Shown here one piece after another: positions 7,151 to 35,939 of a stretch of DNA of 54,255 nt. Position 1 is the stretch's first letter, and each line of letters starts with the position of its first letter. Origin of the DNA: Acidimicrobiia bacterium (GTDB lineage: Bacteria > Actinomycetota > Acidimicrobiia > Spongiisociales > Spongiisociaceae); NCBI GenBank assembly GCA_021296345.1, contig JAGWAN010000025.1:10250-64504 (forward strand), written 5' to 3'. A program made the translations under genes and the position numbers. The notes under the pieces are model-generated. The model made no database searches, was not told the origin of the DNA, and worked only from the letters and a program-made list of their open reading frames with translations.

Positions 7151-7178
7151 CCGTTGCTCCTCTGTTTGGCCCTCCCAT

Positions 7179-7193: not shown

Positions 7194-7248
7194 CTCGCAT
7201 GACACTCCCCCTCGTGGGGATGCCCGGGGTGGCAAGGGAGGCCAAGCA

Positions 7249-8066
7249 ATGTCGAACGTAGTAAGGGCTGCTCTCGTCCAGAGCGAGTGGACCGGCGACA
7301 AGGAATCGATGGTCGCCAAGAACATCGAGTACGCCCGCAAGGCCGCCGCCCAGGGCGCCCGGATCCTCTGCTTCCAGGAGATCTTCAGCGGTCCCTACTT
7401 CTGTACCGAGCAGCGCAACTAGCACTTCGACACCGCGGCACCAAGATGATCGATCTCGCCCGGGAGACCGGGATGGTGCTGGTCGTGCCCATCTTCGAGG
7501 TCGAGGACACCGGCCACTATTACAACACCGCAGCGGTCATCGACTCCGACGGCACCTTCCTGGGCAAGTACCGCAAGACCCACATCCCGCAGGTGGCGGG
7601 GTTCTGGGAGAAGTTCTACTTCCGTCCCGGCAACCTCGGGTTCCCCGTGTTCGACACCGCGGTGGGCCGGATAGGCGTGTACATCTGTTACGACCGCCAC
7701 TTCCCGGAAGGATGGCGGGAGTTGGGGCTGGCCGGCGCCAAGATCGTCTTCAACCCCTCCGCCACCACCCGTGGGCACTCCAAGTACCTGTGGGAACTGG
7801 AGCAGCCGGCGGCAGCCGTCGCCAACGAGTACTTCGTCGGCGCCATCAACCGGGTCGGGAGTGAGGACCTGGAGGACACCGACTACTACGGAAGCTCCTA
7901 CTTCGCATCGCCCCGCGGCGAGATCATCGGCGGCACGGGCTCCGACACCGCGGACGACGTGGTCGTCCGCGACCTGGACCTCGACCTGATCGAGGAGGTG
8001 CGCCATCACTGGGCCTTCTACCGGGACCGCCGCCCGGAGACATACGACCAGATCTCGTCTCCTTGA
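7249..8066 (+). pseudogene. broken beta-ureidopropionase-type carbon-nitrogen hydrolase
   Basis: The 5' part starts at ATG 7249 behind AAGGGAGG and encodes about 57 residues, including CFQEIFSGPYFCTEQ with the catalytic Glu, then hits an in-frame TAG at 7420-7422. The rest is in another frame from about 7440: MIDLARETGMVLVVPIFE, YRKTHIP (Lys), GFWEKFYFRPGNLG, GVYICYDRHFPE (Cys) and FYRDRRPETYD. All three catalytic residues survive but on two frames. Compared with the family, about eight residues (usually an EPxPxGPT-type segment) are missing at the junction, so a small non-triplet deletion plus a stop has occurred. The family hydrolyses N-carbamoyl-beta-alanine in pyrimidine breakdown. Programmed decoding seems unlikely with two lesions; assembly error is possible. 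Confidence 0.82.
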
Positions 8067-9850: not shown

Positions 9851-9891
9851 GTGATTAGTTTCTAGTCCGTCGTTGGTAGTTGCTAGGTGTA

Positions 9892-9941
9892 CTGGTGTGT
9901 CTGCGAGCCAACTCGGTATTCCACAGACAGACCGCTGGTCT
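9892..9941. repeat. intergenic palindromic repeat, copy A
   Basis: It contains a plus-orientation unit, TGGTGTGTCTGCG (9893-9905), and an opposed unit, CCACAGACAGACC (9921-9933), followed by GCTGGTCT. The 14-mer CAGACCGCTGGTCT at 9928-9941 is identical to one at 39728-39741. It lies between two convergent genes and touches the stop codon of the DUF4242 gene. See also the copies at 39722-39797, 39903-39918 and 52143-52158. Confidence 0.6.
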
Positions 9942-10224
9942 AGCCCTTCTCGGTGGTCGGGTCGATGATCTTGCCGACCTCCGTGACCACCGTCGCCGGA
10001 AACCCGCTGCGCTCGGCGTGCTCGTCGATCAGCTCCGGGCTGTCGCAGACGTAGACGCAGAAGGTCTTCTCACCGGCAACGTAGCTGTGCTCCCACTGGA
10101 TGTGCTTGCCCTCGGACTGCATCGCTCGCAGGACCGAGTTGGACTGTCCGGCTGCGGCGCGCAACTGCTCGCGCTCGGCAGATCCGATGTCAGGAATATC
10201 CCGTTCGATGACGAAGCGTCGCAT
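9940..10224 (-). CDS. DUF4242 domain-containing protein
   Basis: A 94-residue single-domain protein of the DUF4242 family (ferredoxin-like fold; a Streptomyces member, SCO4226, was described as nickel-binding). Typical stretches are FVIERDIPDIG at the N-terminus, QWEHSYVAGEKTFCVYVC in the centre and the end GFPATVVTEVGKIIDPTT. GGGAGG lies a few bases before the ATG, fixing the start at 10224. It is monocistronic, convergent with the SLH/PQQ gene upstream in the window and 49 bp from the cytochrome gene's end. The function is unknown; a small stress or metal-binding role is the usual guess for this family. Confidence 0.9.
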   Translation of the reverse strand: MRRFVIERDIPDIGSAEREQLRAAAGQSNSVLRAMQSEGKHIQWEHSYVAGEKTFCVYVCDSPELIDEHAERSGFPATVVTEVGKIIDPTTEKG

Positions 10225-10273
10225 AGTCCTCCCTGGTGTTCCTCACCCCGACTCTAGCCCTGATTGCTCGGGT

Positions 10274-10999
10274 CTAGCCCTCCTGGAGGGACTTGACATA
10301 GCGAGCCACGGCTTCGATCTCGGCCGCCGTGAGTATCTCGCCCCAGGGGGGCATCAGATTTCCTCGTCCGTTGACGATGACCGACGTTATCTCAGCCAGC
10401 GCGAGGCTCGACCGCTGGAGGTCGGCGCCGGTACCGCCTTCCCCTGAGTCGTTGTGGCACACGACGCAGTTGAGCACGTACACAGCGGAGCCATCGACGG
10501 CCGGTTGGGTGGTGGTCGGCGCCGCAGTCGTGGTGGGCGCTCGCGTAGTCGTGGTGGTAGGCGGCTCCGTGGTGGTGGTTGTCGACTCCACAGTTACGGG
10601 TGGCGTCTCCGTCGTGGTGGTCCCGCCTCCGTCCACTGCGGGCGGCGCCGTTGTGGTCGATGGCGCGGTGCCACCGGTGGTCGTGTCCTCGGTGGTAGTG
10701 GTGGCGGTGGGTGCCTGCGTGGTCGTAGCCGCCGACGACGATTCGGTCTTCGGCGGCGCCGAGCTAGACCCGGTCTCCGACGTGGTGGCCGGTTGCGTCC
10801 CGAGCGTGGTTTCCTGGGCAGGAGTGGTGATCACGCGGGTAGTCGTCGTGGTTGCTCCGGTAGTCGGGCTTACCGCGGCCGCCGTCGGCGGAGGAGCCGA
10901 CGGTCCCGCGCTGCAGCCGCCGGAGGCGGCCAGGACGAGGATGAGCAACGCCGTCGCTGACCGTCGCCCGAAGCGTGAGCTCGCGGACTCCGCCTTCAT
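10274..10999 (-). CDS. c-type cytochrome lipoprotein with Thr-rich linker
   Basis: A 241-residue exported protein. The signal sequence ends in the lipobox LAASGGC, so Cys29 would be lipidated. Residues of about 35-165 form a low-complexity Thr/Ser/Pro linker that spans the cell wall, and the last 75 residues are a small class I cytochrome c. The haem-binding CVVCH is at Cys178-His182 and the distal ligand Met216 lies in NLMPPWG. The start at 10999 is chosen because ATG overlaps the upstream TGA (ATGA), GGAGGAG lies upstream and it gives a correct lipoprotein signal. It is the last gene of a run with ychF, DUF368 and the RCC1-deacetylase. Likely role: electron transfer outside the membrane; its redox partner is unknown. 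Confidence 0.88.
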   Translation of the reverse strand: MKAESASSRFGRRSATALLILVLAASGGCSAGPSAPPPTAAAVSPTTGATTTTTRVITTPAQETTLGTQPATTSETGSSSAPPKTESSSAATTTQAPTATTTTEDTTTGGTAPSTTTAPPAVDGGGTTTTETPPVTVESTTTTTEPPTTTTTRAPTTTAAPTTTQPAVDGSAVYVLNCVVCHNDSGEGGTGADLQRSSLALAEITSVIVNGRGNLMPPWGEILTAAEIEAVARYVKSLQEG

Positions 11000-12648
11000 C
11001 GGAGGTCTCCTCCCGTCCGGGACGCGGGGGTACTTAGCCGGGTGGAACCGGGGTGGAGCGTTGGCTCGGGGGCCGGGCATACGGGTTCGTACCGTATCCC
11101 CCGTCCGGAGAGCCGATCAAGGACGATTTCGACGGCCTGGACCGTCTCGGCATTCGGGTGCATCAGGACTATGGACCCGTCCTTGATTCCTTCCATCAGC
11201 CGGCCGGCCACGGTGGGAGCCTCCAGCCCGGCCCAGGCATTGGCGCTTGCCGTCCAGAGCACCACTCTCAGTCCGTGGGCCGCAGCCCACTCCTCGGTGA
11301 ACTCGTTGGTGGAACCGAAGGGAGGACGCATGCACGGCGTGGCGTGATCACCGAGAAGTTCCTGCGTCCGCCCTATCGTCTCGTCGAACTCCTCCCGGGA
11401 AAGGGTTGCCAGATCTTCGTGATTCCAGGTGTGGTTCGCCAGCGAGTGTCCCTCCGAAACGATCCGCCGGATCACCTCGGGATAACGTTCCGCCCGTGCG
11501 CCGATGACGAAGAAGGTGGCTCGGACTCCGTAACGACCCAGGACATCCAGGAGAAGCGGGGTGTACACGGGGTGCGGGCCGTCGTCGAACGTCAGGTATA
11601 CGACCGGGCCGGATCTATCGACCCGCGCGGAAGGGACGCTTGCCGGCGTGTTGTCCAATCCCCAGCAACTGACGGTCCGATCCACCCTGATCCCGCAAGA
11701 GAACCTGTGCCCGGCCGTTACTGCCAAGAAAACGCCTGCCGGAGCGTCAGTCTGGCCATAAAGATCAGAACCCCAGCAAACAACCGACCCATCAACCCTC
11801 ACCCCACACGAATGAAGCAAACCGGCCGAAATCGAAGCAAACATCCCCTCCGGCGCGCTCGCCTGGCCGTAGTAGTTCCTTCCCCAGCAGGCGGCTGTCC
11901 TGTCATCCTTGATCCCGCACGAGAACCTGTAGCCGGCGCTTACGGCAAGAAACGGCTCCGGCGGAGGTTCCAACCAGCGGCCTCTGTTCCCCCAGCAGAT
12001 GGTGCTCCTGTCGGTCTTGACCGCGCACGTATGCTCCCATCCGGCGGAGACAGATACGAAACTGCCCTCCGGAGGCGACGCCTGACCCGAACCATCACTC
12101 CCCCAACAGACGAGACTCCCCTCAGTCCCTACCCCGCACGAATGCCCCCAACCAGCAGAAACCGACACGAAATCACCCGCCGGAGCCTCCACCTGACCGT
12201 ACGAATCACTCCCCCAGCAGACGACCGAGCCACCCATCTCCACCCCACAAGTGTGGGAGAAGCCGGCGGCTATCGCTCGGAAGGCGCCGCTCGGAGCATC
12301 AAGTTTGCGATGATGGTCATCTCCCCAGCAGACGACCGAGCCGTCCGATCCGATACCGCACGTGTGCAGGGAGCCGGACGAAACGCTCTTCCACTGCTCT
12401 GGCTCAGCTTCAATGAGAACATCTTGTGATGTACGTAGCTCTTCAGCAGTGACGCCGGGGGAAGCCTCCTGGTTCCCTTGCCCGGCAGCGCTCGTATCGG
12501 ACTCCGGCAATTGATGAGCATGGGTGATCTGGTTGAAGGACAGTATGAAGAGCAGAGGTATTCCCACCAGCATGGCCAGCAAAGGTAAGGAAGGTGATTG
12601 TTGAGATGCCCCGCAGTCCGAACCGACTTGCATTATCCAGGCTCCCAA
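10996..12648 (-). CDS. RCC1-repeat beta-propeller fused to a polysaccharide deacetylase (NodB) domain
   Basis: A 550-residue protein with an N-terminal membrane segment (about residues 22-40), then seven RCC1-like repeats of about 37 residues (pattern F-x-SVSAG-x-x-HTCG-x-x-x-x-GSVVCWG), enough for one seven-bladed propeller at about residues 82-340. A NodB deacetylase domain follows at about 345-530. Its motif 1 is TFDDGP (about 351), the metal-binding His pair is in NHTWNH, and motif 3 is RPPFGS. Motif 4, normally ending in DW, reads WTASANAW, and motif 5 is VLMHPN, so catalysis is probable but not assured. The fold removes acetyl groups from cell-wall or surface glycans; the propeller may bind glycan or partners. 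It lies 33 bp after DUF368 and overlaps the cytochrome gene by 4 bp. Confidence 0.88.
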   Translation of the reverse strand: MGAWIMQVGSDCGASQQSPSLPLLAMLVGIPLLFILSFNQITHAHQLPESDTSAAGQGNQEASPGVTAEELRTSQDVLIEAEPEQWKSVSSGSLHTCGIGSDGSVVCWGDDHHRKLDAPSGAFRAIAAGFSHTCGVEMGGSVVCWGSDSYGQVEAPAGDFVSVSAGWGHSCGVGTEGSLVCWGSDGSGQASPPEGSFVSVSAGWEHTCAVKTDRSTICWGNRGRWLEPPPEPFLAVSAGYRFSCGIKDDRTAACWGRNYYGQASAPEGMFASISAGLLHSCGVRVDGSVVCWGSDLYGQTDAPAGVFLAVTAGHRFSCGIRVDRTVSCWGLDNTPASVPSARVDRSGPVVYLTFDDGPHPVYTPLLLDVLGRYGVRATFFVIGARAERYPEVIRRIVSEGHSLANHTWNHEDLATLSREEFDETIGRTQELLGDHATPCMRPPFGSTNEFTEEWAAAHGLRVVLWTASANAWAGLEAPTVAGRLMEGIKDGSIVLMHPNAETVQAVEIVLDRLSGRGIRYEPVCPAPEPTLHPGSTRLSTPASRTGGDLR

Positions 12649-12681
12649 CCGGAATCCAGTACTTCGATGGACACCTGGCGG

Positions 12682-13620
12682 TCAGGCGCGGCGCCGGACC
12701 CAGGCACTGAAACCCACAACCACGAAGGCAGCCGCGGCAGCCAATCCTACCGGCACGGCAAAGTCCGGACCAGGCGCTCCGAGGGCGGTGGCGCCGCTCC
12801 CGGTTTCGTCTCCGAGTCCGGCAGGCCAGGGCCAGAGGATGCGGAACGAGCCGAGCATCAGGCCGATCATGACGGCCACCACCCGATCGTGGTGACGATC
12901 CATTGACCGGTGGAGGAAACGGGCGAATAGGCCCAGCCCGACGGCCGCTCCGATGGCGAAGCCGACCAGCTGGACGAGGCGAGCGTCGTTGATGGTCGCC
13001 AGCACGTGCTGGTACATGCCTATCGCCAACAACATGAACGATCCACTCACGCCAGGCAGGATGAACGCGCAGATGGCCAGGGCGCCGGCGCCCACGAAGA
13101 CATACCAGCCCGGGTCGGTGATGACTGACGATCGCAACCCGAACAGGATGAACGATCCGATGCCGACCAGCCCCGCCACCGCGCCGTGAAGAGCACCGGG
13201 CTCGCGGATGATCCGCCACGCCACCCAGACCGACCCGGCGATCAGACCGAAGAAGACGGCGGCTGTCCGGACGGGATGGTCCGCCAGCAGGTCCTCCACC
13301 ACCCGGGCCAGCGAGAGCACCGCGAGAGCCGCTCCCGCCACGACCGGGGTCAGGAACCACCGGTCGACCCGCCCGGCGGCCCGTAGGGCGCCCCTGAAGT
13401 CGCCCTTGAATACCCTTCCCGCTGATCGGGCGCCGGCATCGACGGCGGACACCAGGCGTGGGTAGATGCCGGAGACCAGCGCCACCGTCCCCCCCGAGAC
13501 TCCGGGGACCAGATCAGCCGACCCGATCGCGAAACCCCTGAGGGCCAGCAGCAACAGGCTGGCAGCGGACGGGCGGACGGGACGGCTCACGGACGCCGGT
13601 CCGGCATGATGGCAAGCCAC
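12682..13620 (-). CDS. DUF368 family membrane protein (PopT-type undecaprenyl-phosphate translocase candidate)
   Basis: A 312-residue polytopic membrane protein with about eight to nine hydrophobic segments. The DUF368 signature occurs twice as an internal repeat: GFAIGSADLVPGVSGGTVAL near residue 30 and CAFILPGVSGSFMLLAIG near 190. DUF368 proteins (PopT) have been reported to recycle undecaprenyl phosphate across the membrane for envelope synthesis. The next gene encodes a putative glycan deacetylase, which fits an envelope role. The GTG at 13620 has a weak GAGG 8 nt upstream; a GTG at 13590 is also possible. It lies 10 bp after ychF. Confidence 0.87.
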   Translation of the reverse strand: MACHHAGPASVSRPVRPSAASLLLLALRGFAIGSADLVPGVSGGTVALVSGIYPRLVSAVDAGARSAGRVFKGDFRGALRAAGRVDRWFLTPVVAGAALAVLSLARVVEDLLADHPVRTAAVFFGLIAGSVWVAWRIIREPGALHGAVAGLVGIGSFILFGLRSSVITDPGWYVFVGAGALAICAFILPGVSGSFMLLAIGMYQHVLATINDARLVQLVGFAIGAAVGLGLFARFLHRSMDRHHDRVVAVMIGLMLGSFRILWPWPAGLGDETGSGATALGAPGPDFAVPVGLAAAAAFVVVGFSAWVRRRA

Positions 13621-13630
13621 GGGACCGGCC

Positions 13631-14692
13631 TCATACCGAGAATCGCACCATCATCACGTCCCCGTCCCGGACCTCGTAGTCCCTGCCTTCGACCCGCACG
13701 GCGCCGTCCGATCTGGCGTTCGCCCAACCACCCAGCCTGATCACCTCCTGGATCGGGGCCACCTCGGCCCGGATGAAGCCTCGCTCCATGTCCGAGTGGA
13801 TCCGGCCGGCCGCCTCCCGTGCCCCGGTCCCGGCGGGAACCGTCCATGCCCTGGCGTCTCTACGGTTGACCGTGTAGAAGGTGACCAGCCCGAGTGCCTC
13901 GTAGACGGTCCGCACCACCCTGGCAGGCGCGCCCTCCCCCAGGCCGAGCCCCTCGTAGACCTCAGCCCGCTCCGATGCCTCCAGGCCGGCGACCTCCTCC
14001 TCGATAAGCGCCGACACCGCCAGCACCGGATCCGTGGTGGGTACGGCCTCGCGAACCTGTCCGACCACTTTGTCGTTCCCGCCATCGTCCTCGGCGACGT
14101 TGGCCACCCACACGCAGGGCAGCAGGCTGAGCGGGGCCATGTCGCGAAAGGCCCGGGTCTCGATATCCGACCAGGTCAACTGCCGGAGCGGGATCCCCTC
14201 CCCCAACCGCTCGGCCGCCCTGGCAACCGCCTCGGCGACCGGGCGCAGGTGCGGGTCGGCGGCGGCTTCCTTGGTGAGGCGCTCGTTGCGACGCTCGAAC
14301 ATCTCGAAGTCCGACAAGGCCACTTCCACCAGCAGGTCGTCGGCCTGGCCGACCGGATCGGTTCCGTGCTCACCGACCGGCACCGCCTCCGAGTCGTGAG
14401 CCCTGAGCACCGCCAGGAGCAGGTCCGGCTCCCGTCCGGCGCCGAGGCCCCTTAAAGAACCGGACCGGACCGCAGGGAGGTCGACCAGGTCCAGACCGGC
14501 ATGGGTGACCTTGCGGGACTTCTCCAGAGCCGCCAGCCGGTCGAGGACCCGGTCCGGCACCTTCGCCGTACCGATCTTCGGCTGGGTGGTGGTGTAGGGG
14601 TGGGGCGCGGTGAACGCCTCCAAACCGGTCAGCGCGTTGAACAGCGTGGTCTTGCCGACGTTGGGAAAGCCGAGGAGGCCGGCGCTTGTCAT
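13631..14692 (-). CDS. ychF: YchF/Obg-like P-loop ATPase, divergent
   Basis: A 353-residue homologue of YchF, the translation-associated Obg-family ATPase (usually about 363 residues). The P-loop is GFPNVGKTT (residues 8-16), FTAPHPYTTTQPKIG matches the switch I region, NVAED stands in for the altered G4 motif (NxxE) that gives ATP preference, and the C-terminal TGS domain ends in RDYEVRDGDVMMVRF. The normally invariant DIAG of G3 reads DLPA, and the following GEGLGNxFL is degenerate. This may therefore be a paralogue with changed nucleotide handling. The start was placed at 14692 because the family begins there; upstream codons overlap the divergent gpsA promoter. No clear Shine-Dalgarno is present. 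Confidence 0.82.
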   Translation of the reverse strand: MTSAGLLGFPNVGKTTLFNALTGLEAFTAPHPYTTTQPKIGTAKVPDRVLDRLAALEKSRKVTHAGLDLVDLPAVRSGSLRGLGAGREPDLLLAVLRAHDSEAVPVGEHGTDPVGQADDLLVEVALSDFEMFERRNERLTKEAAADPHLRPVAEAVARAAERLGEGIPLRQLTWSDIETRAFRDMAPLSLLPCVWVANVAEDDGGNDKVVGQVREAVPTTDPVLAVSALIEEEVAGLEASERAEVYEGLGLGEGAPARVVRTVYEALGLVTFYTVNRRDARAWTVPAGTGAREAAGRIHSDMERGFIRAEVAPIQEVIRLGGWANARSDGAVRVEGRDYEVRDGDVMMVRFSV

Positions 14693-14761
14693 GAACCGCT
14701 GAGGGTACCTACAAAACGCTCGGGGTCGGACGGGATGGCACCGCCGGGTTGGAGAACCATC

Positions 14762-14767
14762 TACGCT
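14762..14767 (+). promoter_or_regulatory. -10-like TACGCT before gpsA (leaderless)
   Basis: TACGCT fits the actinobacterial TANNNT and lies 7 nt before the ATG of gpsA, so transcription would begin at or next to the start codon. No Shine-Dalgarno is present before this gene, which agrees. Confidence 0.35.
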
Positions 14768-14774
14768 TGCCGTC

Positions 14775-15782
14775 ATGCGCTTAGCGGTAATCGGGGCAGG
14801 ATCTTGGGGAACGGCCATAGCGCGACTCGCCTCCGCCAACGCCTCGGTGGGGTTATGGACCCGGCGCGCCGAATTGGCCGAGGCCATCAACGCCGACGGG
14901 GAGAACGCCGAATACCTGCCAGGGGTACGCCTATCCGACCACATCACCGCCACCACCGAATTCACCCGGGCTGTAAACGGAGCGGTCGCGGTGCTGGTCG
15001 CGGTTCCGTCCCACGGCTACCGGGACGTCCTGGAGAAGGCGAGTGGCATCATCCCGACGTCCATACCGGTGGTCAGCCTCGCCAAGGGCATCGAGGTGTC
15101 GACCTGCCTTCGCATGTCGGAAGTCACCCTGGACGTACTCGACGGTCATGATCCGAGCCGGGTGGGCGCGCTGTCCGGCCCGAACCTGTCCGAAGAGATC
15201 ATGGACGGCCAGCCCGCCGCCACGGTCCTATCCATGGCCGATCGGACGGTTGGCCGCGAGATCCAATCCATCCTCGGCACGCCCCGTTTCCGGGTGTACA
15301 CCAACCCGGACCTGATCGGGGTGGAGGTGGCCGGCGCCACCAAGAACGTCATCGCCCTGGCGGCGGGGATGTCGCGGGGCCTGGGATTCGGCATGAACAC
15401 GATGGCCGGCCTGGCGACTCGCGGTCTGGCGGAGATGACCCGCCTCGGCGTCGTTCTGGGTGCCGAGGCTCTCACCTTCGGAGGTCTCGCCGGCGTGGGC
15501 GATCTCATGGCGACCTGCGGGAGCCCGAGCAGCCGCAACTACCGGGTGGGGTACCAACTGGGTAAGGGACGCAAGATCGATGAGATCACCTCGCGGATGA
15601 AGACGATCGCCGAGGCGGTACGTACCACCGAGGCCGTTCTCCAGCTCGCGTCTCGACACGGCGTGGAAATGCCCATCGCCGAGGCGGTGGGAAGGATCCT
15701 CTACCAGGGCGAGACCGTCCAGGAGGCGATGAAGCGTCTCCTGGATCGGGAACCCCGGCAGGAAGGTGACGGCATCGCCTGA
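14775..15782 (+). CDS. gpsA: NAD(P)H-dependent glycerol-3-phosphate dehydrogenase
   Basis: A 335-residue cytoplasmic enzyme that reduces dihydroxyacetone phosphate to sn-glycerol 3-phosphate for phospholipid synthesis. The Rossmann motif GAGSWGTA is at residues 8-15, SLAKGIE and LSGPNLSEEI are the substrate-binding segments, and GATKNVIALAAG contains the catalytic lysine. GLAGVGDLMATC, SRNYRVG and the final helical domain are family-typical. The length is normal. The start has no ribosome binding site but a -10-like hexamer just upstream. It is divergent from ychF and followed 69 bp later by a small NIPSNAP-like gene. Confidence 0.95.
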   Translation: MRLAVIGAGSWGTAIARLASANASVGLWTRRAELAEAINADGENAEYLPGVRLSDHITATTEFTRAVNGAVAVLVAVPSHGYRDVLEKASGIIPTSIPVVSLAKGIEVSTCLRMSEVTLDVLDGHDPSRVGALSGPNLSEEIMDGQPAATVLSMADRTVGREIQSILGTPRFRVYTNPDLIGVEVAGATKNVIALAAGMSRGLGFGMNTMAGLATRGLAEMTRLGVVLGAEALTFGGLAGVGDLMATCGSPSSRNYRVGYQLGKGRKIDEITSRMKTIAEAVRTTEAVLQLASRHGVEMPIAEAVGRILYQGETVQEAMKRLLDREPRQEGDGIA

Positions 15783-27107: not shown

Positions 27108-28055
27108 TCACGGCAGTCGGGAGACCTCGTCCAGCGCGGCCAACTGGTCCTCGGCCAGCGTCAGGGTCGTGTACTCGAGCAGCGCTTCCAGTTGCTCCGA
27201 GGTGCGGGCACCCGCCAGCGGCGTCCCAACCCCCGGTTGCGCAGCCACCCATGCCAGCGCGACGGCGGCCAGCTTCACCCCGTGTGACTCCGATATCTCC
27301 TCCATCACGGCAAGGATGCGCCTTCCCTTGTCGTTCAGGTAGGCGGAGGCGGTTCCGGCCCGGGGGCTGTCGACCGGCTGCCCCGACGTGTACTTACCGG
27401 TCAGGAAACCTACGGCAAGCGCGTAGTAGGGCAGGAAGGCCCATTCCTCTCGCCGGGCGATGGGGAGGGTGGTCCGTTCCACGCCCCGCTCCACCAGGCT
27501 GTACATCTGCTGCAGGGCGACAGGACGGTGAAACCCTCCCGCGCGGGTGATCCGCGCCCACTCCTCCAGACGTTCGGCCGAGTAGTTGGAGAGGCCCAGG
27601 TACCGCACCTTGCCCTCGTCCACCAGCTCCGAAAGGGTTCCGATGCTCTCCTCGAGGGGCGTGTCGGGGTCGTCGTAGTGGGCGTAGTAGAGGTCGATGA
27701 CATCTATGCCGAGACGCCCGAGCGAGGCCTCCGCGGCGGCCCTGATCGTGGCCGGGGCCAGACCCTTGTACTCGGGATGGTGGCTGACCTTGGTGGCGAT
27801 CACCAGGTCCTCGCGGTTGCCCCGCTTCTTCATCCACCGGCCGATGATGGTCTCGGACTCCCCTCCCTCGTTGCCCGGGGCCCAGGCCGAGTAGGAGTCA
27901 GCGGTGTCGAGAAAGTTGCCACCGACTGCGACGTATGCATCGAGGATCGCCCAGGTGCTGGGCTCGTCAGCCGTCCAGCCGAAGGTATTCGTCCCCAAGG
28001 CCAGCGGGAATGTCTCCAGCTCGGAGCCGCCGAGCCTCATTCGTGGTGGAGTCAT
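27108..28055 (-). CDS. aldo/keto reductase
   Basis: A 315-residue NADPH-dependent oxidoreductase of the aldo/keto reductase superfamily (TIM barrel). Catalytic residues are Asp50 and Tyr55 in FLDTADSYSAW, the Lys in VIATKV and the His in YYAHYDDPDTP. LGLSNYSAERLEEW and the C-terminal GARTSEQLEALLE bind the cofactor. It resembles the YajO/Tas-like group. Start at 28055: GAGGAGG lies 11 nt upstream and the family starts there. The physiological substrate is unknown. It is divergent from herA, and a truncated copy of its 5' end lies just beyond its 3' end, before purL. Confidence 0.9.
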   Translation of the reverse strand: MTPPRMRLGGSELETFPLALGTNTFGWTADEPSTWAILDAYVAVGGNFLDTADSYSAWAPGNEGGESETIIGRWMKKRGNREDLVIATKVSHHPEYKGLAPATIRAAAEASLGRLGIDVIDLYYAHYDDPDTPLEESIGTLSELVDEGKVRYLGLSNYSAERLEEWARITRAGGFHRPVALQQMYSLVERGVERTTLPIARREEWAFLPYYALAVGFLTGKYTSGQPVDSPRAGTASAYLNDKGRRILAVMEEISESHGVKLAAVALAWVAAQPGVGTPLAGARTSEQLEALLEYTTLTLAEDQLAALDEVSRLP

Positions 28056-28215
28056 GGCGAGAGCAACCTCCTCGGGTGGTGTCCGGTATTCAAGCAACGG
28101 CCTGCACGATACGGCATCGGTCGGAGGGTCGTTCCGGATCGGAACTCCTGGCTTCGATGGCAATCGTGCTAGGGAGCGACCCGGTGGGACGTCGATCCGA
28201 GTCACAGGCGCATGT

Positions 28216-28221
28216 CATAAT
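28216..28221 (+). promoter_or_regulatory. -10-like CATAAT before herA (leaderless)
   Basis: CATAAT ends 6 nt before the GTG at 28228. This predicts that transcription of the herA-sbcD-sbcC-nurA operon starts at the start codon. No Shine-Dalgarno is visible, which agrees. The -35 region is not convincing. Confidence 0.4.
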
Positions 28222-28227
28222 CGGCTA

Positions 28228-29943
28228 GTGGAGAATCAGACAGTAGGCAGGGTGCTCGGCACCGATGATTCGACCCCGCTTGAGTTCTGGGTAGCGGTCG
28301 CGAACGGTCAGCATCTACAACTTGACGACATCATCGCGCTCGACCGGGTCCTGCCGACCGGGGATACCGTCTCGATATACGGAATCGTCGGACAGGTACG
28401 GGCGCGCCATGAAGGGGCCCGGTTCGACTCCGACGTTTTCCTGATCGCCGATGGTGTCCTGCCCGCGGACGTGTCGGAGGCGGCCCAGATCCAGGTCACC
28501 CGGGTCGTACCGGAAACGTTCGTTCCCCCGCTGCCGGGCGCCGAGGTACGGAAGGCCGTCGGCCCTGAACGTGACGAGGCGCTCGACATGGCCGAGGTCG
28601 AACATAGGTTGCCCGCCGGCCTCACGCGGGACGGCCAACCGGTGATGCTCGACCTCGAGTTCATCGACGGCACCAAGGGCGCCCACGTCAACATCTCGGG
28701 AATCTCCGGTGTCGCCACCAAGACCAGCTACGCGACGTTCCTGCTCTACTCGCTGTTCAACTCCGGTGTCCTCGGTGCGGCAGCAGCGAACACCAAGGGG
28801 CTTATCTTCAATGTGAAGGGGGAGGACCTGCTCTTCCTCGACCATGCCAACACCCGCATAGACGAGACGGAGCGAGCCCGCTACGCCGAGCTCGGGCTCG
28901 CAGCCGGACCCTTCCGTTCCATGAGGGCGCTAGCCCCTCCGCGCAAGGGTGATCCCAACGGAACGCCGGCCACCGGGGCGCGCACCACCGGCGTCCGCCC
29001 GCTGTACTGGACGGTCGCCCAGTTCTGCGAGCAGGGACTCCTACCGTTCCTGTTCGCAGATGCCGAGGACGAGCGCCAGCAGTACACGATCGTGGTGCAG
29101 TCGGTCACGGCCCAGCTGCAGCGATGTGCCAAGCAGTCCTATACCGCCGACGGCGCCGTCCGGATCGACGGGAGGACGGCTCGTACCTTCTCCCAGCTCG
29201 TCAGCATTGTTTGCGACAAGCTGCTCCCGCAGGACCCGGACGAGGAGGCCGATCCGCAGTGGACCGGGCGGTCGATCTACACCGGGACTATCAACGCCTT
29301 CGTACGCCGCCTCTCGTCAGCAGAGCGCCACGTCGCGCACCTTGTTCGGGCCGACATCGACGACGCCGAAACGCACGCCATCGACCTCGACTCCCAGCAG
29401 GTGACGGTGGTCGATCTGCACATGCTCCATGACCGAGCGAAGCGCTTCGTAGTGGGCGTCGTGCTCCGGCAGGCGTTCGAGGCGAAGGAAGCCGCCGGCA
29501 CCGCCGAGCCCTTGCAGTTCGTGGTCCTGGACGAATTGAACAAGTACGCGCCGCGTGACTCGTCGAGTCCGATCAAGGAGATCCTGCTCGACGTGGCGGA
29601 ACGCGGCCGCAGCCTCGGGATGATCCTCATCGGCGCCCAGCAGACGGCCAGCGAGGTAGAGCGGCGGGTCGTCTCGAACTCCGCCGTACGGGTGGTCGGT
29701 CGGCTCGACGCCGCCGAGGCCGGGCGCGAGCAGTACGGGTTCCTGCCCGCGGTCCAGCGGCAGCGGGCCACGATCCTCAAGCCCGGCTCCATGTTTGTCT
29801 CCCAACCGCGACTGCCCGTGCCGGTGCTGCTCGAGTTCCCGTTCCCGGCCTGGGCCACCCGGGTCGCCGAGGCCGACTTGAGCGGTGGCGCCGGCGATGG
29901 ACCGGCGGACCGGCCTGCCGACCCCTTCGACGGGCTCGTCTGA
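28228..29943 (+). CDS. herA: HerA-like DNA translocase (HAS-barrel + FtsK/HerA ATPase)
   Basis: A 571-residue protein. An N-terminal beta-rich HAS-barrel (residues 1 to about 100, VGRVLGTDDSTPLEFWVAV...) is followed by a HerA/DUF87-type ATPase. The P-loop is residues 158-167, GISGVATKTS, with Thr164 where the usual Gly precedes Lys165. Walker B is VVLDELNKYAP with Asp435-Glu436, and IGAQQTASEVERRVVSNSAVRVVGRLD is the sensor/arginine-finger region. HerA forms a hexameric ring that pumps DNA and works with the nuclease NurA in resection of DNA ends. Here sbcD, sbcC and a nurA-like gene follow within one operon, which strongly supports the role. The GTG start at 28228 matches the domain start and a -10 just upstream; the long frame before it overlaps the aldo/keto reductase gene. 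Confidence 0.88.
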   Translation: MENQTVGRVLGTDDSTPLEFWVAVANGQHLQLDDIIALDRVLPTGDTVSIYGIVGQVRARHEGARFDSDVFLIADGVLPADVSEAAQIQVTRVVPETFVPPLPGAEVRKAVGPERDEALDMAEVEHRLPAGLTRDGQPVMLDLEFIDGTKGAHVNISGISGVATKTSYATFLLYSLFNSGVLGAAAANTKGLIFNVKGEDLLFLDHANTRIDETERARYAELGLAAGPFRSMRALAPPRKGDPNGTPATGARTTGVRPLYWTVAQFCEQGLLPFLFADAEDERQQYTIVVQSVTAQLQRCAKQSYTADGAVRIDGRTARTFSQLVSIVCDKLLPQDPDEEADPQWTGRSIYTGTINAFVRRLSSAERHVAHLVRADIDDAETHAIDLDSQQVTVVDLHMLHDRAKRFVVGVVLRQAFEAKEAAGTAEPLQFVVLDELNKYAPRDSSSPIKEILLDVAERGRSLGMILIGAQQTASEVERRVVSNSAVRVVGRLDAAEAGREQYGFLPAVQRQRATILKPGSMFVSQPRLPVPVLLEFPFPAWATRVAEADLSGGAGDGPADRPADPFDGLV

Positions 29944-29951
29944 GACCGGCC

Positions 29952-31109
29952 TTGAAGCTCCTCCACACGTCTGACTGGCACGTAGGAAAGACGATCCGGG
30001 GAGCATCCCGGGCCGATGAGCACATCGCCGTCCTGGCCGAGATCGCGCAGATCGCGGCCCGCGAGGAGGTCGATCTGGTCATCGTGGCCGGCGATCTGTT
30101 CGACTCGGCCGCTCCGTCCGCAGAGGCGGAGGGAATCGTATACGGGGCTCTTCTCGACCTGGCGGACACCGGGGCTCAGGTGGCTGTGATCGCCGGCAAT
30201 CACGACAACCCCCGCCGGCTGCGGGCGGTCGCTCCCCTGCTGCGGCTCGGGCGGGTGCATGTGGTTGCCGAGCCGTCCCGGCCCGACGATGGGGGCGTGA
30301 TCAGGTTGCGTAGCCGTGACGGTGCCGACGCACGGCTGGCGATGCTTCCGTTCGTGTCCAAGCGCGGCATCGTGCGAGCCAGGCACCTCATCTCCAAGCA
30401 AGCCTTCGAGAACGTCCAGGACTACGGGGATCGGCTGCGCCGGCTGATTCGGCGCATGTGCGAGCCGTTCCACTCGGACACCGTGAACGTGTTGACGACC
30501 CATGCCTTCGTGCTCGGCGCCCATGCCGGCGGCGGCGAGCGGCCGGCTCACCTGGTCGAGGAGTACGCCGTGACAGCACAGTCCTTCCCGGTGTCCATCG
30601 GCTACGGGGCACTCGGCCACCTCCACCGCCCCCAACGGGTCTTGGCGCAACTCCACTACTGCGGTTCGCCGCTGCAGCTCGACTTCGGCGAGGCGGAACA
30701 GGCCAAGCAGGTGAACGTCGTCTCCGTGGAACCGGGGATTCCTGCCGACGTCAGAGCGGTGCAGCTGACCGCCGGGCACCCGCTGCGGGCGCTTGCGGGC
30801 ACGCTCGACGAACTGAGTTCGGTGAGCGTCGATGACGACGCCTGGCTGAGGGTGGTCGTCCAGGGACCCAGCCGGGCCGGGCTCGCCCAGACCGTGCGGG
30901 AACTCCTCGGACCCCGCGTGGTCGACGTCCGGGTCGAATCACCGGTATCGGCTGCCGGCGAGCGGAGAATCGATCATCGCAGCCGATCGCCGCAGGAGGT
31001 CTTCGACGAATACCTCAAGCACGAGAGCATCGAGGACACCCGCGTCCTCGACCTGTTCGGCGAACTACTCGATGAGCAGAGCGACGCGTCGGTGGCGGTC
31101 GGCTCATGA
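29952..31109 (+). CDS. sbcD: Mre11/SbcD-type exonuclease
   Basis: A 385-residue calcineurin-like phosphoesterase of the Mre11/SbcD family, the nuclease partner of Rad50/SbcC. Metal-binding motifs in order: SDWHVGK (Asp8, His10), VIVAGDLFDS, VIAGNHDNPRRL, TTHAFVLGAHAGG and GALGHLHRPQ. A capping domain and a C-terminal helical segment (SPQEVFDEYLKHESI), the probable Rad50-binding region, follow. It has a TTG start 8 bp after herA and no strong ribosome binding site, so it may depend on readthrough of herA. Its TGA overlaps the sbcC ATG by 4 bp. Confidence 0.92.
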   Translation: MKLLHTSDWHVGKTIRGASRADEHIAVLAEIAQIAAREEVDLVIVAGDLFDSAAPSAEAEGIVYGALLDLADTGAQVAVIAGNHDNPRRLRAVAPLLRLGRVHVVAEPSRPDDGGVIRLRSRDGADARLAMLPFVSKRGIVRARHLISKQAFENVQDYGDRLRRLIRRMCEPFHSDTVNVLTTHAFVLGAHAGGGERPAHLVEEYAVTAQSFPVSIGYGALGHLHRPQRVLAQLHYCGSPLQLDFGEAEQAKQVNVVSVEPGIPADVRAVQLTAGHPLRALAGTLDELSSVSVDDDAWLRVVVQGPSRAGLAQTVRELLGPRVVDVRVESPVSAAGERRIDHRSRSPQEVFDEYLKHESIEDTRVLDLFGELLDEQSDASVAVGS

Positions 31110-33970
31110 GACCGTTGCGGCTTTCGATGAAGGGGTTCGGAGCGTTCCGAGAGGCGACCAACATCGATCTTGCCGACGACGACCTCGTGGCGCTCGTGGG
31201 GCCGACCGGGTCGGGTAAGTCTACGATCATCGACGCCATCACCTTCGCCCTCTACGGCGCGGTCGCCCGCTACGAGGACAACCGGCTGGTGGCTCCGATC
31301 ATCAACCAGACCAGCAACGAGGCTCGGGTGGCGCTCGACTTTGAGCTCGGCGGGCTGGTCTTCACCGCGGCCCGCATCGTGCGCCGGACCAAGGCCGGCG
31401 GGGCGAACACGAGGGAAGCACGCCTCGAGCGGGGCGACGAGATCCTCGCCGGCGACGCCCGGTCCATGTCACAAGAAGTCGAGAAACTTCTCGGGCTCGA
31501 TGTGGACCAGTTCAACCGGACGGTTGTGCTGCCGCAGGGCAAGTTCGCCACCTTCCTCCACGACAAGCCCGGCGACCGCCAAACCACCCTCGTCCGGCTA
31601 CTCGGGATGGATCTGTACCGGCGGATCGGCCGCGCCGCCCGCCAACGAGCCGCGCTGGCCAGGAACCAGATCGACGCCTTGCGGCCGGACCTGGAGAAAG
31701 AGGCCGGACAGCTGACCGGCGAACGACGGGCCGCGCTGGTGAACCGCATCGAGGAACTCGAGGCCCTGCTTTCGCGGTTCAGGGCCGACCGTGAGGCGAT
31801 CACCGCCCTCGACGCCGAACTCCGCGACCTCGATGGTGATATCGAACAACTCGATCACCGGCTCGACCGGATGGACGGGGTAACAGCACCGCCCGGCCTT
31901 GCCGAATTGGCCGCTCGGATCACCGCGGCAACCAGGGAACGGATGGAGGCGGAGGAGCACCGCAAGGAGACGAGCGCGAAGAGACGGCTTGCCAGAGAGG
32001 CCCTCGATAACGGCCCCAATATCGCCACCGTTCGCCTCGCATTGAAAGCACACACCGAGCTTGCCCAGCGAGAACGGGAACACGATGCCGTAGTCAACCG
32101 GCTCTACGAAGCAGCGCAAGCGCACGAGTCGGCCAAGCGCGCCGCCGACCAGGTCCGGGGGAGACAGGAGGAACTGAACCGGCGCGTTGACGAAGCCCGG
32201 CGAGCCGAGACCGGCACGCGCGCCGCGCGCGACTCAGCCGTCACGGTCGCCCAGGTAGCCGCTTGGTCGGCGGCACACGCCCGCTATGAAGCCGCCTCCG
32301 GAGAGGCCGGCGCCACCGCCGCGGCCGCTCAGTTGGCCGAGACAGCGATCAGACCGCTGCAGGAGGCACTCCAGGACGCCGAATTCGGGGCGGCGGAGAG
32401 CTCGGTACGGGTTACGGAGCTTCGGCGCCGCGCCGGTGTCCTCGGTCATGTCGACCTGCTTGAAGTGGGATCGGACTGCCCATTGTGCTTGCAGGAGGTC
32501 CACGAACTACCCGCTCATGACCTCGACGCCGACCTCCGGCAAGCCGCGGCGGACCACGAGACCGCCCTCGCCGTCCGCGCCGACGCCAGGCAGGCATACG
32601 AAGACGCCGAGAAGGCACGGATCAAGCGGCGCGCCGAGCACGAGGCGGCGTTGAAGACCCTGGCCGGCTACGAATCCGACATCGCCTCCATCCCGCCATC
32701 CGACCAGCTCGAAGCGCTGGCGGCGAAGGCCGCCGAGTTGGCCGAGGCCGTCCGCACCGCAGAGATAGCGACCCGGCAGGCCGAAACCGCAGCCGAGCAG
32801 CACCTGGCGACCCGGTCCAACACCGGAATGCTCGAAGCCGAGCAGGCGGCGGACAGGAGCGTGACCCGGCTCACCGAGTCGGCGAACATCCTGCGGGGAC
32901 AGCTGGCAGATCTCCGGGCCACGGTCACCGACCTGCCCGGCGAGGACGAGCTACGCGCTCAACTCGCCGAATGCGGGCGTCTGCAAACGGAAATGGAGAC
33001 GGCGGATTCCGCTTTCAACCACGCCGAAGCACGCTACGAGCGGGCGACCGCCGACCTTGAGGCCGTGAACGAACGGCACGCACACGCTACCAAGCACCTG
33101 CTGGCCGGGCGCGACCGGGTCGCCGCCTTCGGCCCGCCCGTCATCGACACGACCGACCTGGCGGCGGCCTGGGTCGTCCTCACCAGCTGGATCCAGAACC
33201 AGATCGAGGCAGCTACGACCCGGCGTAAAGCTGCCATCGAGCAGCGGTCCGCCAAGGTGAACAGCCGAGCCTCGGCCGTCTCCGCCCTGAGAGACCTATG
33301 CGCCAATACCATCGGCGGCGTCGATGGGGACGCATCGGTGACGGAACTCGGCGAGCTACTCACGACGCAACACGCGGCTTCCACCACGAACCTCGAGCAC
33401 TTCGACTGCCGCCGCGTCGCTCTCGAGAAACTGCGGGAACGCGTCAGCGCCCTAACCGAGCACCGCCAGGTAGCCAGCCACCTCGGGCGGCTGCTGCGCA
33501 CAGACGGCTTCGAGAGCTGGCTCATGGAAGCGGCGCTCGATCAGCTGGCCGAACGGGCAACCAGGCGCCTCTTCGAGTTGTCCGAGGGCCAGTACTCGCT
33601 GGCAGTCGAGAATCGTGACTTCGTCGTCCGTGATCACACCAACGCCGACGAGTTGCGCAGCGCCCGGACCCTCTCGGGGGGTGAGACGTTTCTGGCGTCC
33701 CTCTCCCTCGCCCTGGCCGTGGCCGATGCCACCGCGGAGATGGCTTCAGAGGACGCACCGAGAATGGAGTCGGTCTTCTTGGACGAAGGATTCGGAACGC
33801 TCGACCCGCACACTCTCGACACTGTCGCTACCGCGGTCGAGGAACTCGGGGCCACCGGGCGCTTCGTGGGGATCGTCACCCATATCCGGGAACTCGCCGA
33901 CCGCATGCCGGTACGGCTGGACGTCACCAAGACGGGGGGAGCCGCCACCGTCGAACGGATCGAGGCCTGA
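31106..33970 (+). CDS. sbcC: Rad50/SbcC-type SMC ATPase
   Basis: A 954-residue SMC-like ATPase. N-terminal Walker A GPTGSGKST is at residues 32-40, with QGKFATFL (Q-loop region) after it. Long Ala/Glu/Arg-rich coiled coils run to a zinc hook Cys458-Pro-Leu-Cys461 and back. The C-terminal lobe has the ABC signature LSGGETFLASLSLALA, Walker B SVFLDEGFGTLD and GIVTHI. Rad50 opens and tethers DNA ends for Mre11. The ATG overlaps the sbcD stop (ATGA), and the stop shares a base with the next ATG, so the complex is made from one coupled transcript. The coiled coils are short relative to many SbcC proteins (about 1000-1050 residues). Confidence 0.94.
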   Translation: MRPLRLSMKGFGAFREATNIDLADDDLVALVGPTGSGKSTIIDAITFALYGAVARYEDNRLVAPIINQTSNEARVALDFELGGLVFTAARIVRRTKAGGANTREARLERGDEILAGDARSMSQEVEKLLGLDVDQFNRTVVLPQGKFATFLHDKPGDRQTTLVRLLGMDLYRRIGRAARQRAALARNQIDALRPDLEKEAGQLTGERRAALVNRIEELEALLSRFRADREAITALDAELRDLDGDIEQLDHRLDRMDGVTAPPGLAELAARITAATRERMEAEEHRKETSAKRRLAREALDNGPNIATVRLALKAHTELAQREREHDAVVNRLYEAAQAHESAKRAADQVRGRQEELNRRVDEARRAETGTRAARDSAVTVAQVAAWSAAHARYEAASGEAGATAAAAQLAETAIRPLQEALQDAEFGAAESSVRVTELRRRAGVLGHVDLLEVGSDCPLCLQEVHELPAHDLDADLRQAAADHETALAVRADARQAYEDAEKARIKRRAEHEAALKTLAGYESDIASIPPSDQLEALAAKAAELAEAVRTAEIATRQAETAAEQHLATRSNTGMLEAEQAADRSVTRLTESANILRGQLADLRATVTDLPGEDELRAQLAECGRLQTEMETADSAFNHAEARYERATADLEAVNERHAHATKHLLAGRDRVAAFGPPVIDTTDLAAAWVVLTSWIQNQIEAATTRRKAAIEQRSAKVNSRASAVSALRDLCANTIGGVDGDASVTELGELLTTQHAASTTNLEHFDCRRVALEKLRERVSALTEHRQVASHLGRLLRTDGFESWLMEAALDQLAERATRRLFELSEGQYSLAVENRDFVVRDHTNADELRSARTLSGGETFLASLSLALAVADATAEMASEDAPRMESVFLDEGFGTLDPHTLDTVATAVEELGATGRFVGIVTHIRELADRMPVRLDVTKTGGAATVERIEA

Positions 33971-34896
33971 TGGACTTCAGCGTCGAGTCGTGGGCGCCCG
34001 AATACGGATCCTCCATCAACCTGCCTTCTGCGGAGGACGCCGACGACCAGGCCGACGCCACCGTCGAGCGGCCACTCGATGCGTGGACCCCGATCGACCC
34101 GGCGCCCACTGCCGCGCCTGACGAGATCGCGTTCATCGACGGCATCCAGCGCATCGACGCCAGGATCTGGATCCACGAGAACGGCATCTCCACGCCCGCC
34201 GTCTGCGTGTCGCTGGCCGCCGGCGCAACGGTATGCGCGCCGGGGACAGCCACCACCCACGGCGTCCTGGTCGTCCGCTCACTCATCGCTCCCGCCTCGT
34301 CCACCGCAGGTCCGATCGTCACCCGCCACGCCACCTACGAGTTCGTGCCGGCCCAAGACACGACACCCGAAGCCACCTACCTCGCCATTCACGGGCGTCG
34401 TACCGAACTCGAAATCGGTGTCGCCCGGTCCGTTACCAGCAGCCTCATCGTGTTCGACGGCCCGCTACGGGGGCAAAGCGACCGGCAGAGCGTCGGTTAC
34501 ATCAAGACCCATCACAAGATCTACCTCCCGGACGAAGTCCAGGCGATACTTGGCATCCTCGATGACGGGCAGCGGACTCCCCTCCTATTCCTCAGCGGTG
34601 GTCCGGGTGCGGGTCGCTGGTCCTGGTACCTGCGCCTGCCTGGCCGGCGGGTTCACCCGATGTCGGGGATCGTGCGACTCGAACTCCCGGGAACAGGCAC
34701 GGTGGGCGAGGCTGTCTGCCGAGCCGAAACCGTCAGCGCCTGCCTGCCGCGCTTCGCCAGCGAATCCCATAAGGAGGCCCGTGCGCCGCAGAACCTGTAC
34801 CCGATAAGCGGCATCGAACGAGAACTTCGTAGACGGCTCGGGGATGCCCTCCTGCTCGAACGCGCCCTGCGCGTCGCGGCGCGACCCCTGGTCTGA
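33970..34896 (+). CDS. nurA: NurA-like nuclease
   Basis: A 308-residue protein whose layout fits the NurA nuclease fold. The first metal-binding acidic site is Asp57 in EIAFIDGIQRIDARI, and the second is Asp163 in SLIVFDGPL, the usual strand-DG pattern. A C-terminal segment with RLELPGTG and ISGIERELRRRLGD follows. NurA is a 5'-3' nuclease that is stimulated by HerA; length is normal (300-340). Its ATG shares one base with the sbcC stop (TGATG). The assignment comes partly from context, because overall similarity to archaeal NurA is low by eye. It completes the herA-mre11-rad50-nurA set. Confidence 0.78.
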   Translation: MDFSVESWAPEYGSSINLPSAEDADDQADATVERPLDAWTPIDPAPTAAPDEIAFIDGIQRIDARIWIHENGISTPAVCVSLAAGATVCAPGTATTHGVLVVRSLIAPASSTAGPIVTRHATYEFVPAQDTTPEATYLAIHGRRTELEIGVARSVTSSLIVFDGPLRGQSDRQSVGYIKTHHKIYLPDEVQAILGILDDGQRTPLLFLSGGPGAGRWSWYLRLPGRRVHPMSGIVRLELPGTGTVGEAVCRAETVSACLPRFASESHKEARAPQNLYPISGIERELRRRLGDALLLERALRVAARPLV

Positions 34897-34952
34897 GGGA
34901 AAGCTCAGCAACCAGGCACGCCGTGTGGCATGCCGGGCGGTATGGTTGTTGT

Positions 34953-35519
34953 TCAGGACAGGCGATGCGTCAGCCTATCCAACACGGCGGGTAGGTTCTG
35001 GGAGAAGGCGTCATCTGTCTGTGCGGCTCTGCATCGTGTTTCGATCAGTGTCCAGTCGATTCGATCCCGCGCCGCAATTGCGAGCGCGAGCGCCTCGTCC
35101 CAGGTGACGGTCGATCCATCGGTTGCCTGTATGAGGCGATCCAACATGAGGTCGTTGACCGCGATGATCCTCACCACACGGCCCTCTACGCTCACCAACT
35201 CCGGTGGATCCTCGCCGAGCAGCGTGCTTCCCGGCACCTCGATTGCGATCTCGTGGGCACCCGAACCCCATACCCAATGACGTCCGTCGCGAACGAACCC
35301 CTCGCGGGCCAGCGCGGTCCTGTCCCGGGAGTCGACCGGACCGACCATGTCGATGTCCGTTGAACGTTCGAGACCGGTGTGGATCATCTGGGCCGCGCCA
35401 CCGACCAGCACCAAGGGCGCCCGCACGACGGCAGCAAAGGCGGCAGCCGCCAGGAGAATCCGGTCAAGGCTGTTGGGCGGCGCCCTACGGGCCAGGGCCA
35501 GAAGTTCGGTGGGTTTCAC
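34953..35519 (-). CDS. nucleotidyltransferase-fold protein, probable toxin-like partner of the XRE gene
   Basis: A 188-residue protein with the minimal nucleotidyltransferase signature VLVGGAAQMIHTG (Gly40-Gly41) followed by RSTDIDMVG, whose Asp55 and Asp57 would bind metal. The pattern is that of AbiEii/DUF6036-type proteins; the third acidic residue may be in EIAIEVPG. The start is the GTG at 35519, which overlaps the stop of the preceding HTH gene as GTGA. An upstream ATG at 35570 would lie deep inside that gene. XRE + nucleotidyltransferase pairs are often toxin-antitoxin or abortive-infection modules. That role is inferred from the pairing only. It converges with nurA, 56 bp apart. Confidence 0.78.
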   Translation of the reverse strand: MKPTELLALARRAPPNSLDRILLAAAAFAAVVRAPLVLVGGAAQMIHTGLERSTDIDMVGPVDSRDRTALAREGFVRDGRHWVWGSGAHEIAIEVPGSTLLGEDPPELVSVEGRVVRIIAVNDLMLDRLIQATDGSTVTWDEALALAIAARDRIDWTLIETRCRAAQTDDAFSQNLPAVLDRLTHRLS

Positions 35520-35854
35520 CCCAGGAGGCGCCGCTCGATAGTCGTATCGATCCCGCGCGACTGCTTCCACGCCAGCCTCTGCTCGGTATCACGGACACGA
35601 ATGCCGTGTTCGGAGAGGCGTATCCGCCCCTCGTCCATCCGGCCCCTGACCTCCGACATAGTCATAACGGCCGGTGCACACAGCACAGGCTTCACTCCCA
35701 ACGCACGAGCGATGCGCGCCAGCGTGGAGTATCTGGCATCCACCCTCCCTGCTTCGAACCGCGACAAGTTGGGCTGGGCGATACCCGTCATCGCCGACAG
35801 CTGCGAAAGCGTGATCCCCATTTCCGACCTAATCTTCCTCAACTCCCGATGCAT
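35516..35854 (-). CDS. XRE-family HTH regulator / antitoxin candidate
   Basis: A 112-residue protein with an N-terminal Cro/C1 helix-turn-helix: RKIRSEMGITLSQLSAMTGI, then AQPNLSRFEAGRVD and ARIARALGVKP. The C-terminal 50 residues are charged and unassigned. The start at 35854 is preferred because TATAAT sits about 10 nt upstream, so the transcript would begin only a few bases before ATG. An in-frame ATG further upstream lies within that promoter. The stop overlaps the start of the nucleotidyltransferase gene by 4 bp, the usual order for an antitoxin followed by its toxin. It probably autoregulates. Confidence 0.82.
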   Translation of the reverse strand: MHRELRKIRSEMGITLSQLSAMTGIAQPNLSRFEAGRVDARYSTLARIARALGVKPVLCAPAVMTMSEVRGRMDEGRIRLSEHGIRVRDTEQRLAWKQSRGIDTTIERRLLG

Positions 35855-35864
35855 AGCAATCCGG

Positions 35865-35870
35865 ATTATA
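35865..35870 (-). promoter_or_regulatory. -10 element TATAAT of the XRE-nucleotidyltransferase pair
   Basis: A perfect minus-strand TATAAT in a locally AT-rich stretch (about 35860-35890). It implies a transcript start about 4 nt before the ATG at 35854. No good -35 is visible. Confidence 0.45.
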
Positions 35871-35939
35871 GCGAATGTGATATAGAAGTTCATCGCAGTC
35901 GAGGAGCCGGAGCCGGCACTCACGCGATGAACATGGCGG

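Follow-up and report, generated by a model that had tools for sequence, protein, structure and literature searches.

The HerA-NurA pair of Deinococcus radiodurans performs a translocation-dependent 5' resection (PMC9960219) and is treated as a minimal machine in a 2026 paper (PMC12977600). A 2021 review places HerA/NurA in Actinobacteria and Cyanobacteria (PMC8708640), and a 2023 paper describes bacterial NurA-HerA as limited to few bacteria (PMC9960219). In the archaeon Sulfolobus islandicus, all four genes of the HerA-Mre11-Rad50-NurA operon are essential (PMC4351679, PMC2288612). One bacterial case of a similar arrangement, that of Oceanithermus, is already in print. Here we describe a four-gene locus, herA-sbcD-sbcC-nurA, at positions 28228 to 34896 of a 54,255-nucleotide stretch of DNA (the window; contig JAGWAN010000025.1 of assembly GCA_021296345.1, positions 10,250 to 64,504) from an Acidimicrobiia bacterium. 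We show what the four genes are, that their catalytic residues are intact and, by genome comparison, that they occur together and share a history. We consider it likely that this is a bacterial DNA-end-processing operon, wide but patchy in its distribution, in which SbcCD and HerA-NurA resect DNA ends, probably for repair, beside an AdnAB-like enzyme.

The four genes and their products

Re-reading of the open reading frames returned the four consecutive genes, with the coordinates and junctions that a first-pass annotation of the window had given them. The herA gene (28228-29943, GTG start, 571 amino acids) is separated by an 8-bp gap from sbcD (mre11; 29952-31109, TTG start, 385 amino acids), which overlaps sbcC (rad50; 31106-33970, 954 amino acids) by 4 bp (ATGA); sbcC in turn overlaps nurA (33970-34896, 308 amino acids) by 1 bp (TGATG). 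All four lie on the forward strand, and from their tight spacing we infer that they form one coupled unit carried on a single transcript, as the annotation had also proposed. Because the identical set was seen in dozens of genomes, a chance grouping of the four genes is excluded. The window genome (G000) is a 2.83-Mb draft, 95% complete; the named genomes closest to it are metagenome bins of Acidimicrobiia, which come from sponges.

The herA product is of the bacterial (D. radiodurans) type. Two stretches that together cover nearly its full length (residues 5-555) matched D. radiodurans HerA (PDB 7f6d_B) with an E-value of 3e-153, and a broad bacterial HerA profile searched against the PDB scored 651 bits for D. 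radiodurans HerA and at most 36 bits for any other chain. The protein fell below the cut-offs of Pfam DUF87 (11.8 versus 23.2 bits, E 0.26) and of the archaeal HerA model NF040819 (11.8 versus 970 bits), and the archaeal HerA models all scored 11.8 bits or less. The sequence has a P-loop (GISGVATKT, with K165 and T166), a Walker B pair (D435-E436) and R443. T164, which precedes the lysine in the P-loop pattern GxxGxATKT, is kept in 37/37 aligned rows, as are K165 and D435-E436; T166 is kept in 36/37, with one Ser. By alignment, K165/T166, D435-E436 and R443 correspond to K175/T176, D487/E488 and R495 of the D. radiodurans protein, where K175, D487/E488 and R495 have been shown to be essential. 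It follows from the D. radiodurans work that, by analogy, the window HerA would be a hexameric ATPase that translocates DNA.

The last gene, nurA, is predicted to encode an RNase H-like nuclease that partners HerA. The single sequence fell 0.4 bits short of the Pfam PF09376 cut-off (20.6 versus 21.0), and a profile built from 49 relatives retrieved D. radiodurans NurA (7f6d_H, 1.4e-45) and Thermotoga TM1739 (1zup, 1.5e-16). An AlphaFold model (mean predicted local distance difference test score, 90.0) gave as its best PDB fold matches 7f6d_G (E 1e-16), 1zup and Sulfolobus NurA (2ygk), so the predicted structure bears out the earlier assignment of the fourth gene to the NurA fold. The catalytic set comprises D57, E148, D163, K179 and R271; D57 is kept in 31/32 rows (one gap) and the other four residues in 32/32. 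D57, K179 and R271 align with D53, K201 and R309 of D. radiodurans NurA, if a numbering offset of 20 residues in the PDB chain is assumed, and mutation of these residues abolishes nuclease activity in that protein.

The two middle genes encode the metallophosphoesterase nuclease subunit (SbcD) and an ABC/SMC-type ATPase with a coiled coil and a CPLC zinc-hook motif (SbcC). SbcD exceeded the TIGR00619 cut-off (180.9 versus 77.65 bits) and those of Pfam Metallophos and SbcD_C; its residues D8, H10, D48, N83, H84, H184, H223 and H225 are kept in 22/22 rows. SbcC matched best the bacterial model TIGR00618, at 260.6 bits and below that model's cut-off of 478.5, and exceeded those of Pfam AAA_23 and SbcC_Walker_B. 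Its translation carries Walker A (GPTGSGKST), the LSGGE signature, Walker B (VFLDEGFGTLD) and the CPLC hook; loose versions of these patterns were found in 107, 96, 98 and, for the CxxC hook, 110 of 110 rows, respectively.

The cluster had been described as archaeal in type, a label that these affinities argue against: the nearest relatives of all four proteins are bacterial (D. radiodurans for HerA and NurA, Escherichia coli for SbcD and a bacterial model for SbcC). The archaeal operons of Sulfolobus and Pyrococcus read herA-mre11-rad50-nurA, so their gene content and order equal those of the window operon. This likeness speaks for a recent transfer of such an operon into the window bacterium, and the 2026 paper considers the bacterial herA-nurA pair likely to have come from archaea (PMC12977600). 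However, the SbcD profile scored 218 bits against E. coli SbcD, 164-168 against the best Thermotoga Mre11 chains and no more than 89 against archaeal Mre11; SbcC scored at most 100.9 bits with archaeal Rad50 models; and the low scores of HerA with the archaeal models point the same way. The GC content of the operon is also that of the surrounding DNA. A recent archaeal transfer is thus extremely improbable.

Distribution, gene order and descent

When one genome per species was scanned with HerA, 396 places coding for a relative came to light, and the 80 best were examined. All four genes are present in the window's order at 58 of these loci, and at 47 of the 58 no gap exceeds 200 bp; the remaining 22 are without one or more genes, most being split or cut by contig ends. 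At one locus (L060), nurA was not found although the contig continues. Extra genes lie inside the operon in some relatives and looked mixed by eye, one of those in L006 resembling a DNA methyltransferase. Within the window's class, this HerA (E <= 1e-20) occurs in 99/296 genomes, and within its phylum in 66/246. A draw of Gemmatimonadota made around a Longimicrobiales genome had it in 101/150 genomes (identity at least 56% in 9 and about 30-47% in the others), and a draw of Chloroflexota in 14/151. One metagenome-assembled genome titled Gammaproteobacteria (L076) falls in the phylum draw of the Longimicrobiales genome of L062, and its title is probably wrong.

To these loci we added 50 stretches around HerA genes from the window's own phylum, the Gemmatimonadota and the Chloroflexota, hand-picked for spread of identity and contig room with their context unseen at selection; one (L168, a 4-kb contig) was unusable. 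In 47 of the other 49 the four genes lie on one strand, 40 reading nurA-herA-sbcD-sbcC and 7 having nurA last like the window, with other genes intervening in some. The two exceptions, both Chloroflexota, have nurA-herA without sbcCD. Six records of a plasmid collection also matched HerA, and four were examined: nurA is last in a Streptomyces plasmid and in a Nonomuraea record, which at 11.9 Mb is therefore probably a chromosome, and first in two plasmids, a conjugative one from a cyanobacterium and one from Chloroflexota. HerA matched two phage records, and the one examined, Marinitoga camini virus 1 (L112, 3663-6371), carries a nurA-herA pair without sbcCD. The first-pass annotation had held that in bacteria sbcCD or herA-nurA usually stands by itself; where the context of this HerA type was examined, the full set of four was instead the rule. 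The annotation had also named, as a result that would speak against it, an order ubiquitous in the phylum and unconnected with archaeal forms. The survey largely agrees with that result, except that the operon is patchy in the phylum instead of ubiquitous.

The presence and absence of the genes is also unit-like. Of 40 relatives that were chosen, all 27 with a strong herA had sbcD (E <= 1e-10), as did 1 of the 13 without (Fisher p 2e-9, kinship ignored). The distances of the four proteins correlate across 100 loci (Mantel r 0.898-0.943, computed without L155, L168, L173 and L113), and none of 999 permutations reached any of these values. Such co-occurrence and shared history, with a linkage conserved across three phyla, oppose the alternative that four housekeeping genes are merely adjacent, SbcCD being an ordinary hairpin nuclease that does no joint work with HerA-NurA. 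What speaks for mere adjacency is that the halves can separate: sbcD lies apart from herA in the genomes of L022, L030, L032 and L048, the two Chloroflexota stretches lack sbcCD, and nurA-herA is reported separate from sbcCD in Thermus. We regard it as very unlikely.

In a HerA tree of 71 rows, built without the very long branches of L112 and L113, a single branch (support 91/97; recovered in 90% of 200 bootstrap trees) separates all nurA-last rows from the others, with one change required; the program flagged that long branches meet. A smaller tree of 46 rows under a mixture model agrees, with a support of 87. Under midpoint rooting, which does not infer the root, the nurA-last clade lies inside deep bacterial lineages that are nurA-first, a nesting that is also at odds with a recent archaeal source. 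A profile search of the PDB with HerA offered one chain named 'DNA helicase' at 25 bits and none able to root the tree. Because nurA-first spans the deep lineages, the simplest reading is that nurA, originally at the front, was relocated a single time to the operon's back, and that the window belongs to the clade in which this happened. Given a single move, the likeness of the window's order to the archaeal order would be convergent.

Proposed function and neighbourhood

Because the catalytic residues are kept, the operon likely encodes a working DNA-end-resection machine, and the annotators' proposal of a complete bacterial one probably holds. SbcC-SbcD, of the Rad50-Mre11 type, would capture broken or blocked double-strand ends or hairpin ends and nick, open or clear them. 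Next, HerA as a ring and NurA as its dimeric partner would draw in and degrade the duplex, so that RecA receives a 3' tail. DNA would have to be handed over between SbcCD and HerA-NurA, and repair would be the main role.

The operon would act alongside the AdnAB-like enzyme of the same genome, a pair of proteins encoded side by side (1040 and 1006 amino acids), each with UvrD and PDDEXK_1 matches (Pfam). Whether they have herA or not, 40/40 relatives gave a PDDEXK_1 match; that of G109 is its only one and lies in a 282-amino-acid frame. We considered the operon as a replacement for AdnAB or RecBCD and rejected this on the pair in the window's genome, to which the Pfam check was confined, and on the PDDEXK_1 matches in all 40 relatives. 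Since these matches are present whether or not herA is, the operon is an addition and not a substitute.

Several observations weigh against this reading. D. radiodurans cells that lack nurA-herA are about 10-fold more resistant to ultraviolet light and mitomycin C, and Thermus mutants show mixed results, so that 'repair' is insecure even where it has been tested. The HerA-NurA of Thermococcus kodakarensis degrades both strands, and those who described it suggest that it acts against viruses. The operon is patchy in the phylum and present on plasmids, and a few of its copies have defence neighbours. Further, G137, of the window's own genus, has an operon of the nurA-first type (L128, 2646-9551) whose HerA is 47% identical, which suggests transfer; and, against simple descent, G272 of the same genus (84% complete) is without a match.

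Some of these observations would fit a defence role, in which the module destroys phage or plasmid DNA in the manner of HerA-Sir2 and HerA-DUF4297, whose nucleases are different. In the plasmid of Streptomyces sp. BB1-1-1 (L110, 1-18830), the herA-sbcD-sbcC-nurA operon adjoins an ImmA/IrrE gene in divergent orientation and TIGR02680, TIGR02678 and DUF2397 genes that are Wadjet-like. In the Chloroflexota locus L164 (about 6365-15552), an IrrE-like gene, nurA-herA-sbcD-sbcC and, 48 bp past the sbcC match, Wadjet JetA (DUF3375) follow one another on one strand, in what is possibly a cluster for damage sensing, resection and SMC-based immunity. IrrE-type genes also flank the copy in L113, and other Chloroflexota flanks hold a JetB gene (L165) and a PD-Lambda-2_B match (L163). 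The occurrence of the operon on plasmids, the nurA-herA pair of the phage and the patchy distribution agree with such a role, and the NurA model resembles 8wfd_G of TdpAB (E 7e-5), which is presumably a defence complex.

The immediate surroundings of the window operon point elsewhere. Its neighbours are purine, aldo/keto reductase and sugar dehydrogenase genes, and the same purine genes lie to its left in 4/6 close relatives (L010 has other neighbours and L005 reaches a contig end). In a PADLOC scan of 146 proteins sampled from 391 in the flanks, about 7-8/146 were defence matches versus about 3/141 in AdnAB-flank controls (p 0.2-0.3), among the matches listed; these protein numbers are inferred from family counts for the best 25 of 39 families, and the flank set covers three phyla (frames above 1200 amino acids dropped) and the control the window's class only (frames of 850 amino acids or more dropped). 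Moreover, the HerA is far from those of defence systems (36 bits or less), and none of the four window operon proteins has a Sir2 or DUF4297 match in Pfam, in a scan that took in some of the other open reading frames. Defence is thus not supported for the window's own operon. A few copies in Chloroflexota and on plasmids do have Wadjet or IrrE genes at their side, but we judge a defence module unlikely overall. The defence genes beside deeper copies nevertheless keep it a live rival in those lineages.

On the minus strand of the window, at 34953-35923, lie two genes: one encodes an HTH_3 (helix-turn-helix) protein, and the product of the other matches a nucleotidyltransferase family (DUF6036) weakly and below threshold. 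It was this toxin-antitoxin-like pair that had prompted the first suggestion of defence. A link between the pair and the operon was rejected, with the helix-turn-helix gene in the flanks of 1/6 close relatives and the nucleotidyltransferase-like gene in 0/6, and the suggestion is not supported.

A scan of 27900-35000 for sigma-70-type promoters returned 0 sites. Directly 5' of the herA start lies a conserved stretch, GTCA...ATGTCATAAT (28195-28227, + strand); across seven aligned upstream regions, ATGTCA is invariant ahead of the start and the rest of the intergenic region drifts. This stretch is possibly the -10 box of a leaderless promoter. A perfect palindrome, GTTCCGGATCGGAAC (28131-28145), lies about 80 bp upstream of herA. 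A role as an operator is not supported: its stretch is absent from the 6 aligned relatives, and 25 of 100 shuffled windows gave such a match.

A broader reading joins repair to defence. Mre11-Rad50 and HerA-NurA could be an old machine of bacteria themselves instead of a loan from archaea, inherited and passed between lineages as a unit in at least three phyla (with the cyanobacterial plasmid as a fourth), gained or lost whole while AdnAB stays and tied in some Chloroflexota and plasmids to IrrE-type damage sensing and Wadjet-type immunity, thereby serving repair as well as defence. We advance this tentatively, as a possibility that is itself doubtful.

Comparison with described systems

A literature search did not find a widespread bacterial four-gene operon described; older comparative work lay outside that search, and an earlier report is possible. 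We claim no priority for what is added here, namely the breadth of the operon, its unit-like presence and absence and the single relocation of nurA.

The HerA-based defence complexes (8xau and others) share with the window operon a HerA-type ring ATPase joined to a nuclease, but their HerA is distant and their partner enzymes are others. The archaeal operon of Sulfolobus unites the same four functions (PMC4351679, PMC2288612), whereas all four sequences are of other types. Closer to the window is Oceanithermus profundus, in which a bacterial HerA is likewise followed downstream by sbcD and sbcC, an arrangement that its authors found similar to the archaeal one (PMC5448004). The same paper places nurA before herA in Thermus, in contrast to its last position in the window, and takes the Oceanithermus SbcCD genes as a local recruitment, whereas our survey suggests that the four-gene state is common in bacteria. 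The NurA-HerA of D. radiodurans (7f6d, 7wrw; PMC9960219) has the same HerA and NurA types and the same catalytic residues as the window; unlike the window genes, the pair is reported to lie apart from those for SbcCD (PMC8708640). Should SbcCD and HerA-NurA indeed act as a single machine, relatives that grow readily, Catellatospora among them, would lend themselves to a test, and the puzzling phenotypes of D. radiodurans and Thermus may reflect half of a split system.

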